Source of the DNA: Phenylobacterium sp. | GTDB taxonomy: Bacteria; Pseudomonadota; Alphaproteobacteria; Caulobacterales; Caulobacteraceae | Direction of reading: 5' to 3' | DNA: 64,000 bases | Assembly (NCBI GenBank): GCA_020402745.1 | Contig: JADBYZ010000005.1 | Span: 16,510 to 80,509 of the forward strand | Shown: positions 15,564 through 31,818 of the stretch, piece after piece | Position numbering within the stretch: the stretch's first letter is position 1 | Layout: every line of letters starts with the position of its first letter | Made by a program: the position numbers and the translations under genes | The notes under the pieces: model-generated | Told to the model about the DNA's origin: nothing | The model's database searches: none | What the model saw: only the letters and a program-made list of their open reading frames with translations

Positions 15564-16877
15564 ATGGCACCCCTTCGATCAATCCCTGCCGCGATCGTCC
15601 TGAGCCTTGGCCTGGTGCTTCAAGGCTGCGCCGGACAGGGACCGCCAACGCTCGCCCTGATGCCGGCGCCGGAAGCCTTCTCGAAGGGGGCCTTCGACCA
15701 GGCGGCGGATGACCGGCCGGTCGGTGACATTCCGGACGGCGGCCTGCTCTACGCGACGGGCCGACAGAAGAGTCCCGGGAACGCTCCTGGCGATTTCTAC
15801 ACCACTGAGCGAAGCCTCGTCGTCCATCTGGGGGAGGCCAAGATCAGCATCAGCCGGCCCGAGATCACCTGGCGGCAGGCCCGCGAGATCGCGCTCCTCA
15901 AGGCGCCGACCGGGGATTATCCGATCCAGGTCTCCGGCGTGACGGAGTTCGGAATCCTGGACCGTTCCGTGACGCCCTATGTCGATCCCGGCCCTCTGGC
16001 AATTGCGCCCGCATCGGCGACGGCGCAGTTCACCAGCGAGGTGAACCGCCGGCTTGAGCGGACAGGTCAGAAGGACGTCTACATCTACGTCCATGGCTAC
16101 AAGGTGACCTTTGACAATCCGGTGCTCGTCGCGGCCGAGATGTGGCACTTCATGGGTTATGAGGGCGTCTTCATCGCTTATTCCTGGCCGGCGACGCCGG
16201 AATCCACGGCCTATATCGGAGATGTCGACACCGCCATGGGCATGGCGCGTAACCTTCGGGAACTGGTGCACACCCTGGAGACGGAAACAAAGGCCGAGCG
16301 GATCCACATCATCGGCTACAGCGCCGGAACACGGCTTGTAAGCCGGACCCTCGAGCAGATGGCCCTCCTGAACCGCGACCGACCGCAGGGCGCCTACAGG
16401 TATGGCTCCCGGCTGGAGAACGTTTTCCTGGTTTCCAGCGATGTCGATCGTTCGGTCTTTGGCGCCTACCTCGCCGATGGAATCCTGGACGTGTCCCGCC
16501 ATCTGATCATCTACGCCTCGGCCAAGGATAACGCCCTCCGGATGTCCGAGGCGATCACAGGTCACGAGAGGCTGGGTCAGGCCCTCAGGGGTGAGGCCGT
16601 CCCGCCCGCATTCGCCCAGCTCCTGAAATCGCGGGCGGACAGGATTTCCTATATCGACGTCTCCGAAGCCCCGGATATCGAGTGGGGGAATGGACATGGC
16701 TACTTCCGGGGCAGCCCCTGGGTCTCCAGCGACCTGATGGTCAAGCTGATGTATCGACTGGATCCTGAGGTGCGGGGACTGGTCCGGGATCCGGCGACCG
16801 GCATCCTCGCCTTCCCGACCGACTATGACCAGCGGATGCAGAAGACGCTGTCCGGGATCAAACGACCGCAGCCCTGA
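15564..16877 (+). CDS. DUF900-type alpha/beta hydrolase lipoprotein
   Basis: The 437-residue protein begins with a lipoprotein signal (MAPLRSIPAAIVLSLGLVLQGC), the lipobox cysteine being Cys22. The body has YIYVHGYKVTFDNPVLVAAEMWHF, AYSWPATPESTAY and the nucleophile elbow GYSAGTRLVSRTL, which match the DUF900/YlyB-like alpha/beta hydrolases; VSSDVDRSVF near 300 would hold the acid. Start 15564 is chosen because AGGAG lies 7 bases upstream and the signal peptide begins there. The substrate is unknown; it probably acts at the outer or inner membrane surface. It is convergent with the next gene, 6 bases apart. Confidence 0.8.
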   Translation: MAPLRSIPAAIVLSLGLVLQGCAGQGPPTLALMPAPEAFSKGAFDQAADDRPVGDIPDGGLLYATGRQKSPGNAPGDFYTTERSLVVHLGEAKISISRPEITWRQAREIALLKAPTGDYPIQVSGVTEFGILDRSVTPYVDPGPLAIAPASATAQFTSEVNRRLERTGQKDVYIYVHGYKVTFDNPVLVAAEMWHFMGYEGVFIAYSWPATPESTAYIGDVDTAMGMARNLRELVHTLETETKAERIHIIGYSAGTRLVSRTLEQMALLNRDRPQGAYRYGSRLENVFLVSSDVDRSVFGAYLADGILDVSRHLIIYASAKDNALRMSEAITGHERLGQALRGEAVPPAFAQLLKSRADRISYIDVSEAPDIEWGNGHGYFRGSPWVSSDLMVKLMYRLDPEVRGLVRDPATGILAFPTDYDQRMQKTLSGIKRPQP

Positions 16878-23735: not shown

Positions 23736-23961
23736 GGCCTCGCACGCCTCCCTGCGCCGGTCCGTTGTCCGCTCAGCCGGCACCATAGTCCCGGCCACAG
23801 GTCGGCGGAAGACTGACCTCGCGTCAGGGACGGCGACCAATCCGGAGCGCCTCTGACGGGGTCACCAGCCCTGCGGCCCGCCGGGACGAGGCGGCACCGG
23901 CTTTCTTGACGGAGGTCTTTGGAAACATCACAACCCGGGCATGACCCCGGGTGAGATTCAC

Positions 23962-24831
23962 ATGCGTCAAACGACGCTTTCCTGGCCTGCTTTCCTCTGG
24001 GCCGCCGGCCTGGGGCTGGTGACGCTTTTCACGCTCCTGGATCCCGAACCCTCGAGGTCGCTCGGCCTCTTGGAGCGGCTCTTGTTCTGGCTTCTCCACG
24101 TGGGCGGGCTGATCCTCGTGATGCAATCCAGCCAGTCGTTTCTCTCGCGCATCTCACCCTCGCGACACCTGAACCCCTGGATCCAGATTGTGATCGCCGG
24201 CTTGATCGGCGCCGCGATCTTCGCACCCATCGGAGCCTGGCTGGACGGGTTCTTCGGATTGTCGGAGGTCAAGGAGGATGTGAACCAGCCCTGGCCCTAC
24301 CAGGTTTTCGAGGATTTCACCGCAATCGCTCCCGCCGCAGTCTTCTGCTGGGTTGGACTTAACGCGGCGCGCAACCTTCGTTTGCCAGCCCCGAATGAGG
24401 CCTCTCCACGCCCCCCTCCCGCCCCGCAGGAGTTGACCGAGGCCTCTGAACCGGCGCCGGTGCGACTTGACGTCCAGCCCCCGGGCCAAGCCATGGGAGC
24501 AGATGAGGCAGGGCCTCCGTTCTGGTCCCGCGTGCCAAGAGCGCTGGGGCGCGACCTTGTCGCTCTGACCGCCGAACTCCACTACCTGCGGGTCGAGACC
24601 GCAAATGGAGACGCGCTCATCCTCTACCCCTTCGGACAGGCCGTCGCTGAGCTCGCTGCGTCCATGCCGGACGGCTCCCAGATCCATCGTTCACATTGGG
24701 TGGCGCACTCCCATGTGGCCAAGATCCAAAGGGACCGCGGACGGGTATTCTGCCTCTTGAACAGTGGAACGCGACTACCTGTCGGGCGTCGGCGCCAGGC
24801 CGCCATCCTCGCCCGCCTCTCAAGCGCCTGA
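23962..24831 (+). CDS. Membrane-anchored LytTR-domain transcription regulator
   Basis: This 289-residue protein has an N-terminal membrane domain with about four spans (around 8-27, 36-55, 72-92 and 118-138). A Pro-rich linker (145-185) leads to a C-terminal LytTR DNA-binding domain: LVALTAELHYLRVETANGD, VAELAASMPDGSQIHRSHWVA and KIQRDRGRVFCLLNSGTRLPVGRRRQAAIL. There is no receiver domain, so the signal is probably sensed in the membrane. ATG 23962 is preferred because GGTGAG lies 6 bases upstream; ATG 23941 is possible. Direct repeats fitting LytTR sites lie just downstream, before the outer-membrane protein gene. Confidence 0.88.
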   Translation: MRQTTLSWPAFLWAAGLGLVTLFTLLDPEPSRSLGLLERLLFWLLHVGGLILVMQSSQSFLSRISPSRHLNPWIQIVIAGLIGAAIFAPIGAWLDGFFGLSEVKEDVNQPWPYQVFEDFTAIAPAAVFCWVGLNAARNLRLPAPNEASPRPPPAPQELTEASEPAPVRLDVQPPGQAMGADEAGPPFWSRVPRALGRDLVALTAELHYLRVETANGDALILYPFGQAVAELAASMPDGSQIHRSHWVAHSHVAKIQRDRGRVFCLLNSGTRLPVGRRRQAAILARLSSA

Positions 24832-24890
24832 AGGGCCAGGGCGGCGCAGGCGTCGGTCCTGCAGGATACGCACCCCGTCCTTCGGACAGC

Positions 24891-24961
24891 GCCGTTCATG
24901 CGCGCACCCTCGCCATTCGCGCCCCGCACGGCCGTTCGTGCAGGTGCGAGCGCCGTTCGTG
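24891..24961 (+). promoter_or_regulatory. Four direct repeats resembling paired LytTR binding sites
   Basis: GCCGTTCAT (24891), GCCATTCGC (24912), GCCGTTCGT (24931) and GCCGTTCGT (24952) are direct repeats. Within each pair the start-to-start distance is 21 bases, that is 9-mers with a 12-base spacer. Known LytTR sites are two 9-base direct repeats with a GTT core and a 12-13 base spacer. The array ends 68 bases before the ATG of the beta-barrel gene and begins 60 bases after the LytTR gene stop. Regulation of that gene by the adjacent LytTR protein is inference. Confidence 0.65.
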
Positions 24962-25028
24962 CAGCACGCCATTATGGCGCCCATTTTCGGAAGCAGGTTC
25001 GCCTCACCATGAAGACGGAGGTTTCAGT

Positions 25029-25694
25029 ATGTTTCGGTTCCGATCCAGGATCCTTGTAACGACGCTTGTCGGGACCCTTCTTGCCGGAGGCGTTGCGATG
25101 GCTCAGGAGGCCGGCGACCAGCCCGGCTTCTATGCCCGCGTATACGGTGGAATCTCGACACTCAGCGACACCAGGGTGGACGTGGGAATGTCCTCCGCTT
25201 CCGGCGAGTTCAGCGGACGCACCCTCGCCGGCGGCGCCTTTGGCTATGACTATGAGGGGCCGTGGCGCGTGGAGATCGAGTACACGTACCGCTCAAGCGA
25301 CGTCAAAGTGCCCGCCGGCTTCGCGGGCGGCGGGGACTACGCCTCTACGGCGATCCTCGTCAACGGCCTCTACAACTTAGGCCAGTTGGGACCGCTGCGA
25401 CCCTATGTGGGTGCAGGGATTGGCTTTACCCGTGAAGTGGATCTTGATCTAAAGCCGCAGACGGCACCTTCGGCGCCGCCCTCATTCGCCCCCGGGTCCT
25501 ACTCGAGTTCGGGTCGCTTGGCCTTCCAGGCCATTACGGGCGCCGAGATCCCATTCGATGAGCGCTGGTCTGGATTCGGAGAGCTTCGTGCCTTTGCAAT
25601 CGATAGCCCCAACCTGTCGGGCTCCGGCGGGAAGAAACTGAGGGCGGACTATCAGACCTTTGACGTTCTGGTCGGCGTTTCCAGGCGGTTCTGA
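25029..25694 (+). CDS. Outer-membrane beta-barrel protein
   Basis: This 221-residue protein has a signal peptide (MFRFRSRILVTTLVGTLLAGGVAMAQ) and an eight-strand-like barrel: FYARVYGGISTL, GAFGYDYEGPWRVEIEYTYRSSDV, STAILVNGLYNLG, LRPYVGAGIGFTREV, RLAFQAITGAEIPF and the terminal FDVLVGVSRRF ending in Phe. GGAGG lies 7 bases before ATG 25029. It resembles the Omp25/P44-Msp2-type small porin-like family. Its promoter region carries the LytTR-like direct repeats, so it is likely the target of the upstream regulator. Confidence 0.85.
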   Translation: MFRFRSRILVTTLVGTLLAGGVAMAQEAGDQPGFYARVYGGISTLSDTRVDVGMSSASGEFSGRTLAGGAFGYDYEGPWRVEIEYTYRSSDVKVPAGFAGGGDYASTAILVNGLYNLGQLGPLRPYVGAGIGFTREVDLDLKPQTAPSAPPSFAPGSYSSSGRLAFQAITGAEIPFDERWSGFGELRAFAIDSPNLSGSGGKKLRADYQTFDVLVGVSRRF

Positions 25695-28676: not shown

Positions 28677-29210
<534 letters not shown>

Positions 29211-31744: not shown

Positions 31745-31818
31745 GGCCTGATGGCGGAGTGGTGACGCAGCGGACTGCAAATCCGTGCACCCCGGTTCGA
31801 TTCCGGGTCAGGCCTCCA
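31745..31818 (+). tRNA. tRNA-Cys (GCA)
   Basis: The acceptor arms GGCCTGA (31745-31751) and TCAGGCC (31808-31814) pair, with discriminator T and encoded CCA (31816-31818). The anticodon stem GCGGA/TCCGT closes the loop CTGCAAA with anticodon GCA. The T arm CCCGG-TTCGATT-CCGGG is perfect. The D arm is GCGG..GACGC. Length with CCA is 74. Confidence 0.95.

Follow-up and report, generated by a model that had tools for sequence, protein, structure and literature searches.

A membrane-anchored LytTR regulator and a conserved direct-repeat operator as a candidate one-component envelope circuit in Phenylobacterium

It is still debated how transcription factors anchored in the membrane reach and control their DNA targets, and the question is raised by a locus of Phenylobacterium sp. 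The window analyzed here is a stretch of 64,000 nucleotides (positions 16,510 to 80,509 of contig JADBYZ010000005.1, assembly GCA_020402745.1) from a genome of 2.87 Mb in 46 contigs. In this window, a gene for a transmembrane (TM) protein with a LytTR DNA-binding domain is followed by spaced direct repeats and then by a gene for an outer-membrane beta-barrel. A preliminary description of the DNA had proposed that these elements form a surface-sensing circuit with four repeats. The present analysis favors, with a probability of roughly 0.7, a self-contained one-component envelope circuit in which the membrane-anchored LytTR regulator would use one local operator and would probably activate the adjacent envelope gene.

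Both proteins were found to be as previously described. Hydropathy and the predicted structure (predicted local distance difference test score, 85.9) gave four TM helices in the LytTR protein. PF04397 matched residues 205-292 above its curated cut-off; the Pfam scan of the regulator returned no other family and neither a receiver nor an MHYT domain. The protein is thus a one-component transmembrane transcription regulator, with the DNA-binding domain and the TM helices in a single chain, and its linker, at about residues 146-192, was predicted with low confidence. Loop charges suggest that both termini are cytoplasmic and that the periplasmic loops are very short. The next gene was confirmed as encoding an outer-membrane barrel (PF13505, E value of 3e-13). 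When a profile of the barrel family made from 20 relatives was compared with the PDB, it matched OprG, OmpW, NspA, Opa, and AlkL at E values of 3e-9 to 2e-5, with OprG and OmpW at 3e-9 to 6e-9. The narrower OmpW family, PF03922, gave no Pfam match to the window barrel and was above its cut-off in 1 of 10 scanned target proteins.

The four 9-mers lie between the two genes where they had been reported, GCCGTTCAT at 24891, GCCATTCGC at 24912, and GCCGTTCGT at both 24931 and 24952, with start-to-start steps of 21, 19, and 21 that make two pairs with 21-base spacing. The pair nearer to the barrel gene (the inner pair) consists of CCGTTYGTGCA twice with a 21-bp period, the conserved half-site being 11 bp and longer than the 9-mers quoted earlier, and its second half-site lies 65 bp before the barrel ATG. 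With 11-bp half-sites, a 21-bp period, and about 12 bp separating the 9-mers, the predicted operator fits the LytTR format; LytTR sites are described as 9-bp direct repeats 10-13 bp apart (PMC11347149).

It is very improbable that these repeats are chance or unrelated DNA, such as a coding remnant, mobile-element debris, or an RNA structure. Single half-site 9-mers are indeed common in this GC-rich DNA, as GCCRTTCRY occurred 9 times in the window versus 6.4 expected and 18 of 100 shuffles reached 9. Pairs at 21 bp with at most 2 mismatches are another matter: only these two occurred in the window, 0.23 were expected on average, and 2 of 100 shuffles reached two. In the whole genome, CCRTTYGTGCA-N10-CCRTTYGTGCA with at most 3 mismatches gave 2 matches (1 for the backwards-pattern control), and both separate a TM-LytTR gene from a barrel gene; the 9-mer pair form with at most 2 mismatches gave 3 (control, 0), the third at C8:32653 with 2 mismatches. 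Besides the shuffles and this near-uniqueness, the motif-free lag of 21, the clade counts, and the half-site conservation presented below argue against chance, and an Rfam scan of the window returned a tRNA only. The second match to the long pattern, at C5:196406, falls within a paralogous TM-LytTR and barrel locus of the same genome (G000:C5:195485-197128; L079, L004), which is an addition to the preliminary description. The paralogous regulator is 46-47% identical to the window regulator and its locus has the same half-sites, and cross-regulation between the two regulators of this genome is possible.

Five loci were aligned, namely, the window locus, the paralogue, and those of genomes G067, G386, and G250. 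Invariant positions made up 21/22 of the half-sites (10/11 and 11/11), 3/10 of the spacer, and 10/104 of the flanks (6/40 in the 40 bp upstream and 4/64 in the 64 bp downstream). The 21-bp period was therefore retained while the flanks diverged, an outcome that the preliminary description had named in advance as support. The distance from the 3' half-site to the barrel ATG was 64-66 bp in the five loci, 66-68 bp in three rhodobacterial loci, and 42-109 bp over all loci measured. The outer pair was retained in near relatives only (G051, G386, and partly G067). By this comparison, the inner pair is the predicted core of the operator and the sole pair conserved beyond the closest relatives. LytTR-type direct repeats for a membrane-anchored regulator beside a barrel gene have good comparative support, and the operator first proposed with four sites is narrowed to the inner pair. 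Brevundimonas loci often carry another pair farther upstream, at a distance of 62 bp.

Related loci were collected by scanning a set that held a single genome for each species with a profile. The best 80 loci, less two that were cut off or broken (L103 and L144), comprised 51 that matched into the TM part and 27 LytTR-only controls, 78 in all; loci chosen by the pattern (L038-L067) were excluded from the counts. A pair was called strict when each half matched at least 8 of 11 positions, with a sum of at least 17, within 500 bp, and looser when these values were 7 and 16. In a quick maximum-likelihood tree of 84 proteins, a branch with a Shimodaira-Hasegawa-like approximate likelihood ratio of 99 (FastTree support, 0.992) split 45 proteins, 42 of them labeled for the motif, from 39 proteins with no label; the labels mixed strict and looser matches, which is offset by the counts from the looser test. 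Forty-one loci of the best-80 set fell inside this clade and 37 outside. The strict pair was found in 33/41 clade loci versus 0/37 others and the looser pair in 38/41 versus 3/37, while the strict test at lags besides 20 and 21 was positive in at most 1/41 clade loci. When the clade was clustered at 60% identity, 20 of the 26 clusters had a strict pair and 20 had a barrel.

Similar results were obtained by other routes. A pair lay within 400 bp of 30/51 TM-LytTR loci versus 0/27 LytTR-only loci, compared with a mean of 0.08 and a maximum of 1 in shuffles that moved dinucleotide blocks without overlap, which is a coarser null than the shuffle built into the tool. A motif-free search downstream of the genes gave 12-base matches of at least 10 in 17/54 regions at lag 21 (next best, lag 20 with 5); upstream, lag 20 came first with 7 and lag 21 second with 6 (next best, 3). 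Several loci have the pair upstream of the LytTR gene, reversed, so that it points at a divergent neighbor. The clade spans alpha-, beta-, and gammaproteobacteria, and the layout is not peculiar to Caulobacterales. In a 390-genome family scan, the exact pattern occurred at 6 places, all beside a clade LytTR gene. Matches at 1 mismatch (58/390) were mostly one near-identical sequence, CCGTTCGTGGATGAACATCAGCAGTTCGTG, and were about as frequent as those of the backwards control, which would favor chance; because of this dominance and this control, the 1-mismatch scan was dropped and only the exact places were used. Among the family-scan loci (L013-L034), L013 of genome G108 has both pair and barrel. 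Separately, L018 and L022 contain a strict pair somewhere within their 3.3 kb.

The same counts bear on whether the neighboring gene product is the protein that reads the repeats. They might instead be read mainly by another LytTR protein, either the paralogue or one of two others in the genome, which we regard as quite improbable. Cross-binding is likely, since the paralogue's locus carries the same half-sites, but the pair tracks this LytTR clade across genomes and, in its strict form, was beside none of the 37 outside loci. Moreover, one barrel locus (G386:C40) that has no local LytTR gene also has no pair, although its genome has another TM-LytTR of the clade elsewhere.

A barrel of the same family was found within 2.5 kb in 26/41 clade loci versus 0/37 others. 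Twenty-one of these 26 have a strict pair, four a looser pair (L102, L105, L112, and L120), and one (L113) a weak pair. Ten good barrel-family genes (E value of at most 6e-42) were present in 390 Caulobacteraceae genomes, and nine of them adjoin a clade LytTR gene and carry the pair; the case that the preliminary description had named as its refutation, repeats missing where both genes stay, did not occur among these loci (9/9 with the pair). The tenth, at G386:C40 (L180:3243-4600), has neither LytTR gene nor pair on a contig that is continuous there, and it is flanked by GNAT-like and aroQ-like open reading frames (ORFs), the same neighborhood as that of the G250 locus; this difference may have arisen by loss or by gain, in either direction. 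Four weaker barrel matches (E value of about 1e-26) had no clade LytTR gene and no pair in the stretch retrieved.

Where the pair occurs without a barrel, other genes take its place. In Brevundimonas, the pair is followed by a PAP2 phosphatase gene and then a PMT_2-type gene, and PAP2 is also found in L104 and, by resemblance, in L109. The rhodobacterial operator points at a divergent lycopene cyclase gene (L087:3443-3530; by resemblance L089:3499-3530), which ties this regulator type to carotenoids, and in L110 and L111 an FrsA-like esterase heads a gene row with LytTR last. The Brevundimonas locus L097:2579-3500 has the order LytTR, pair, barrel, pair, PAP2, with one operator per target. The adjacent genes identified were mostly envelope genes. 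When 385 alphaproteobacterial genomes were sampled evenly, matches at an E value of 1e-45 or better came from 13 (the genome of the window included), and 2 of the 12 new loci were in the clade, both with pair and barrel. Locus L188 is probably not independent because its operator is letter-identical to that of L102, and L189 alone is clearly new. Overall, the module is uncommon and its distribution patchy. Outside the clade, the TM-LytTR loci L194:1429-1459 and L198:790-820 share a variant pair with a lag of 20, CCGTTCGCGAAG and CCGTTTGCGTAG, which precedes the LytTR gene and may be a sister operator. On a Catenovulum adriaticum plasmid (L201), a related LytTR gene is divergent from an annotated MipA/OmpV family outer-membrane gene; no convincing pair was found at that locus.

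The sign of regulation was addressed from the positions just past the operator. Among 33 operator sites, which are not 33 independent events because related loci are included, T was present at +8 in 24/33, TG at +8 or +9 in 21/33, and A at +32 in 20/33, as expected for -35 and -10 elements just past the operator. It is established that LytTR proteins bind as dimers to direct repeats separated by about two turns and that sites upstream of -35 usually activate (PMC11347149, PMC4064291). Because of these two points, the bound regulator is somewhat more apt to activate the barrel gene than to repress it. The same regulator and operator might act in the opposite sense, with the tethered dimer blocking the promoter until a signal from the envelope lifts the block. 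Repression of this kind is reported for CoxC, a LytTR protein that is bound to the membrane and has direct-repeat operators (PMC11347149). Also consistent with repression is the weak -35 at its usual place in the window, since the true promoter could overlap the repeats. Repression is nevertheless unlikely, as the -35-like TG lies 8-9 nucleotides past the operator and not inside it in 21 of the 33 sites and most LytTR regulators that bind upstream of -35 activate, according to the same source (PMC11347149).

In the circuit favored here, a four-helix bundle with short loops would hold the regulator in the inner membrane, presumably with both the N and the C terminus inside, and a flexible linker would carry the LytTR domain, a dimer of which would bind the inner CCGTTYGTGCA pair, whose half-sites, two turns apart, would face the same side of the helix. 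The operator appears to stop a few bases short of the barrel promoter zone, the position used by LytTR activators, and the bound regulator would most likely activate the barrel gene, with the TM bundle tuning activation by the state of the membrane or envelope. A four-helix bundle without a periplasmic domain suggests that membrane state rather than a soluble ligand is sensed; "surface sensing," as first proposed, is unsupported, no result bearing on the signal. The position of the operator next to the regulator gene in both copies would also suit a tethered protein that acts mainly on DNA drawn to the membrane while that protein is being made (transertion).

Several points weigh against this circuit. 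The promoter match in the window is poor, with A at +8 and no match to the sigma-70 consensus in the promoter zone, so activation is argued from relatives. Two paralogous regulators share one half-site, making the pairing of regulator to site ambiguous, and conservation of the outer pair does not reach far. The consensus was partly derived from loci that were later counted. With the looser cut-off, 3 of the 37 outside loci also have a pair, and 4/10 outside-clade loci of the alphaproteobacterial sample have a loose pair somewhere in the locus. Finally, L122 is without a convincing pair and L113 has a weak pair only.

Among known systems, HigX (CCNA_03131) of Caulobacter crescentus, in print by July 2026, is likewise a LytTR protein with four TM helices, a short disordered linker, a C-terminal LytTR domain, and no periplasmic or receiver domain, and its chromatin immunoprecipitation peaks are near cell-envelope genes (PMC13384398). 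The preliminary description, which knew of no such system in Caulobacterales, is corrected by this related protein. Its motif, an 8-bp inverted repeat without spacer from many peaks, differs from the one described here, which is a direct repeat with a 21-bp period and occurs locally at one or two places, and, unlike the HigX gene, the window regulator gene is not directly upstream of ctrA. We take L028 and L031 to be HigX-position orthologues, as the gene that immediately follows each of them is CtrA-like, judged by a CtrA motif. Both, which represent HigX in the tree, fall outside the 45-protein clade (FastTree, 0.992), align with the window protein over the LytTR domain only (41% over 100 residues), and have no strict pair at their loci. 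CoxC of Afipia carboxidovorans, an MHYT-LytTR protein, shares the membrane anchor and direct-repeat operators at the adjacent target promoter, and its half-site TTNNNGCN fits TTCGTGCA; it differs in having a seven-TM MHYT sensor for CO and three repeats and in being a repressor of CO-oxidation genes, whereas the window regulator has four TM helices and no MHYT domain (PMC11347149). The sites of RcoM (TTCNNGCA; PMC11347149) and AlgR (CCGTTCGTC; PMC4064291) are also on record. AlgR and other LytTR response regulators have a near-identical half-site core, CCGTTCGT(C), but are soluble, have a receiver domain, and act at many promoters, where their sites are single or far apart (PMC4064291). The LytTR regulatory systems of Streptococcus mutans similarly combine a small TM unit with a LytTR protein, but as two separate proteins, the membrane partner inhibiting, rather than one fused protein (PMC13384398). 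Judged by sequence, the window regulator would work like HigX and CoxC, yet it is neither and belongs to a clade apart from the HigX orthologues. Searches of the open-licence PubMed Central literature returned no description of the LytTR-barrel pair or of this operator.

Coordinates are collected in Table 1. For the regulator, a start at 23941 appears better placed than one at 23962 because orthologues open with MSLGEIHPRQ, with P where the window protein has M8. By eye, the surrounding ORFs are acyl-CoA dehydrogenase-like and valyl-tRNA synthetase-like. Elsewhere in the window, the sole Rfam match is a tRNA-Cys (GCA) at 31745-31818, and a perfect 6-bp tandem repeat, CTCGGG, runs for 6.2 copies at 28989-29025.

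Table 1. Features of the regulator, operator, and barrel locus, in window coordinates
Feature	Position	Strand	Remarks
TM-LytTR regulator gene	23941..24831	+	296 amino acids; four TM helices at 15-33, 43-70, 79-104, 118-145; LytTR DNA-binding domain at about 205-292
Outer half-site 1, GCCGTTCATGCG	24891..24902	+	Retained by G051 and G386; degenerate copy in G067; missing in both G250 and the paralogue
Outer half-site 2, GCCATTCGCGCC	24912..24923	+	GCCGTTCGGG at the same place in G067 and G386
Inner half-site 3, GCCGTTCGTGCA	24931..24942	+	5' half of the conserved operator; 10/11 positions of CCGTTCGTGCA identical across the five loci aligned
Inner half-site 4, GCCGTTCGTGCA	24952..24963	+	3' half of the conserved operator; 11/11 positions invariant in five related loci
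Putative promoter zone	24970..25005	+	In other loci, -35-like TG 8-9 nucleotides past the operator, then A-rich near +32; window copy a poor match
Likely ribosome-binding site (GGAGG) for the barrel	25017..25021	+	From sequence
Outer-membrane beta-barrel gene, OmpW/OprG-like	25029..25694	+	221 amino acids; signal-peptide-like start; PF13505, E value of 3e-13

Regulator, operator, and target together span about 1.8 kb. The operator has almost no other copy in the genome, and many genera have the same trio. A system this small would allow tests of how specifically the regulator binds, how far it reaches from the membrane, and which signal it senses, and the locus offers a function hypothesis for the small-barrel family. 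More tentatively, and at less than even odds, these loci may represent a widespread but patchy family of minimal inner-to-outer-membrane feedback switches, in which one membrane-anchored LytTR protein would read membrane or envelope state and directly set one adjacent envelope gene through a conserved two-half-site operator. The targets (mostly an OmpW-like barrel; otherwise a lycopene cyclase, an esterase, or a PAP2 lipid phosphatase accompanied by a glycosyltransferase-like gene) would have been swapped in evolution while regulator and operator were kept together, and tethering would confine the action of each regulator to its own locus.
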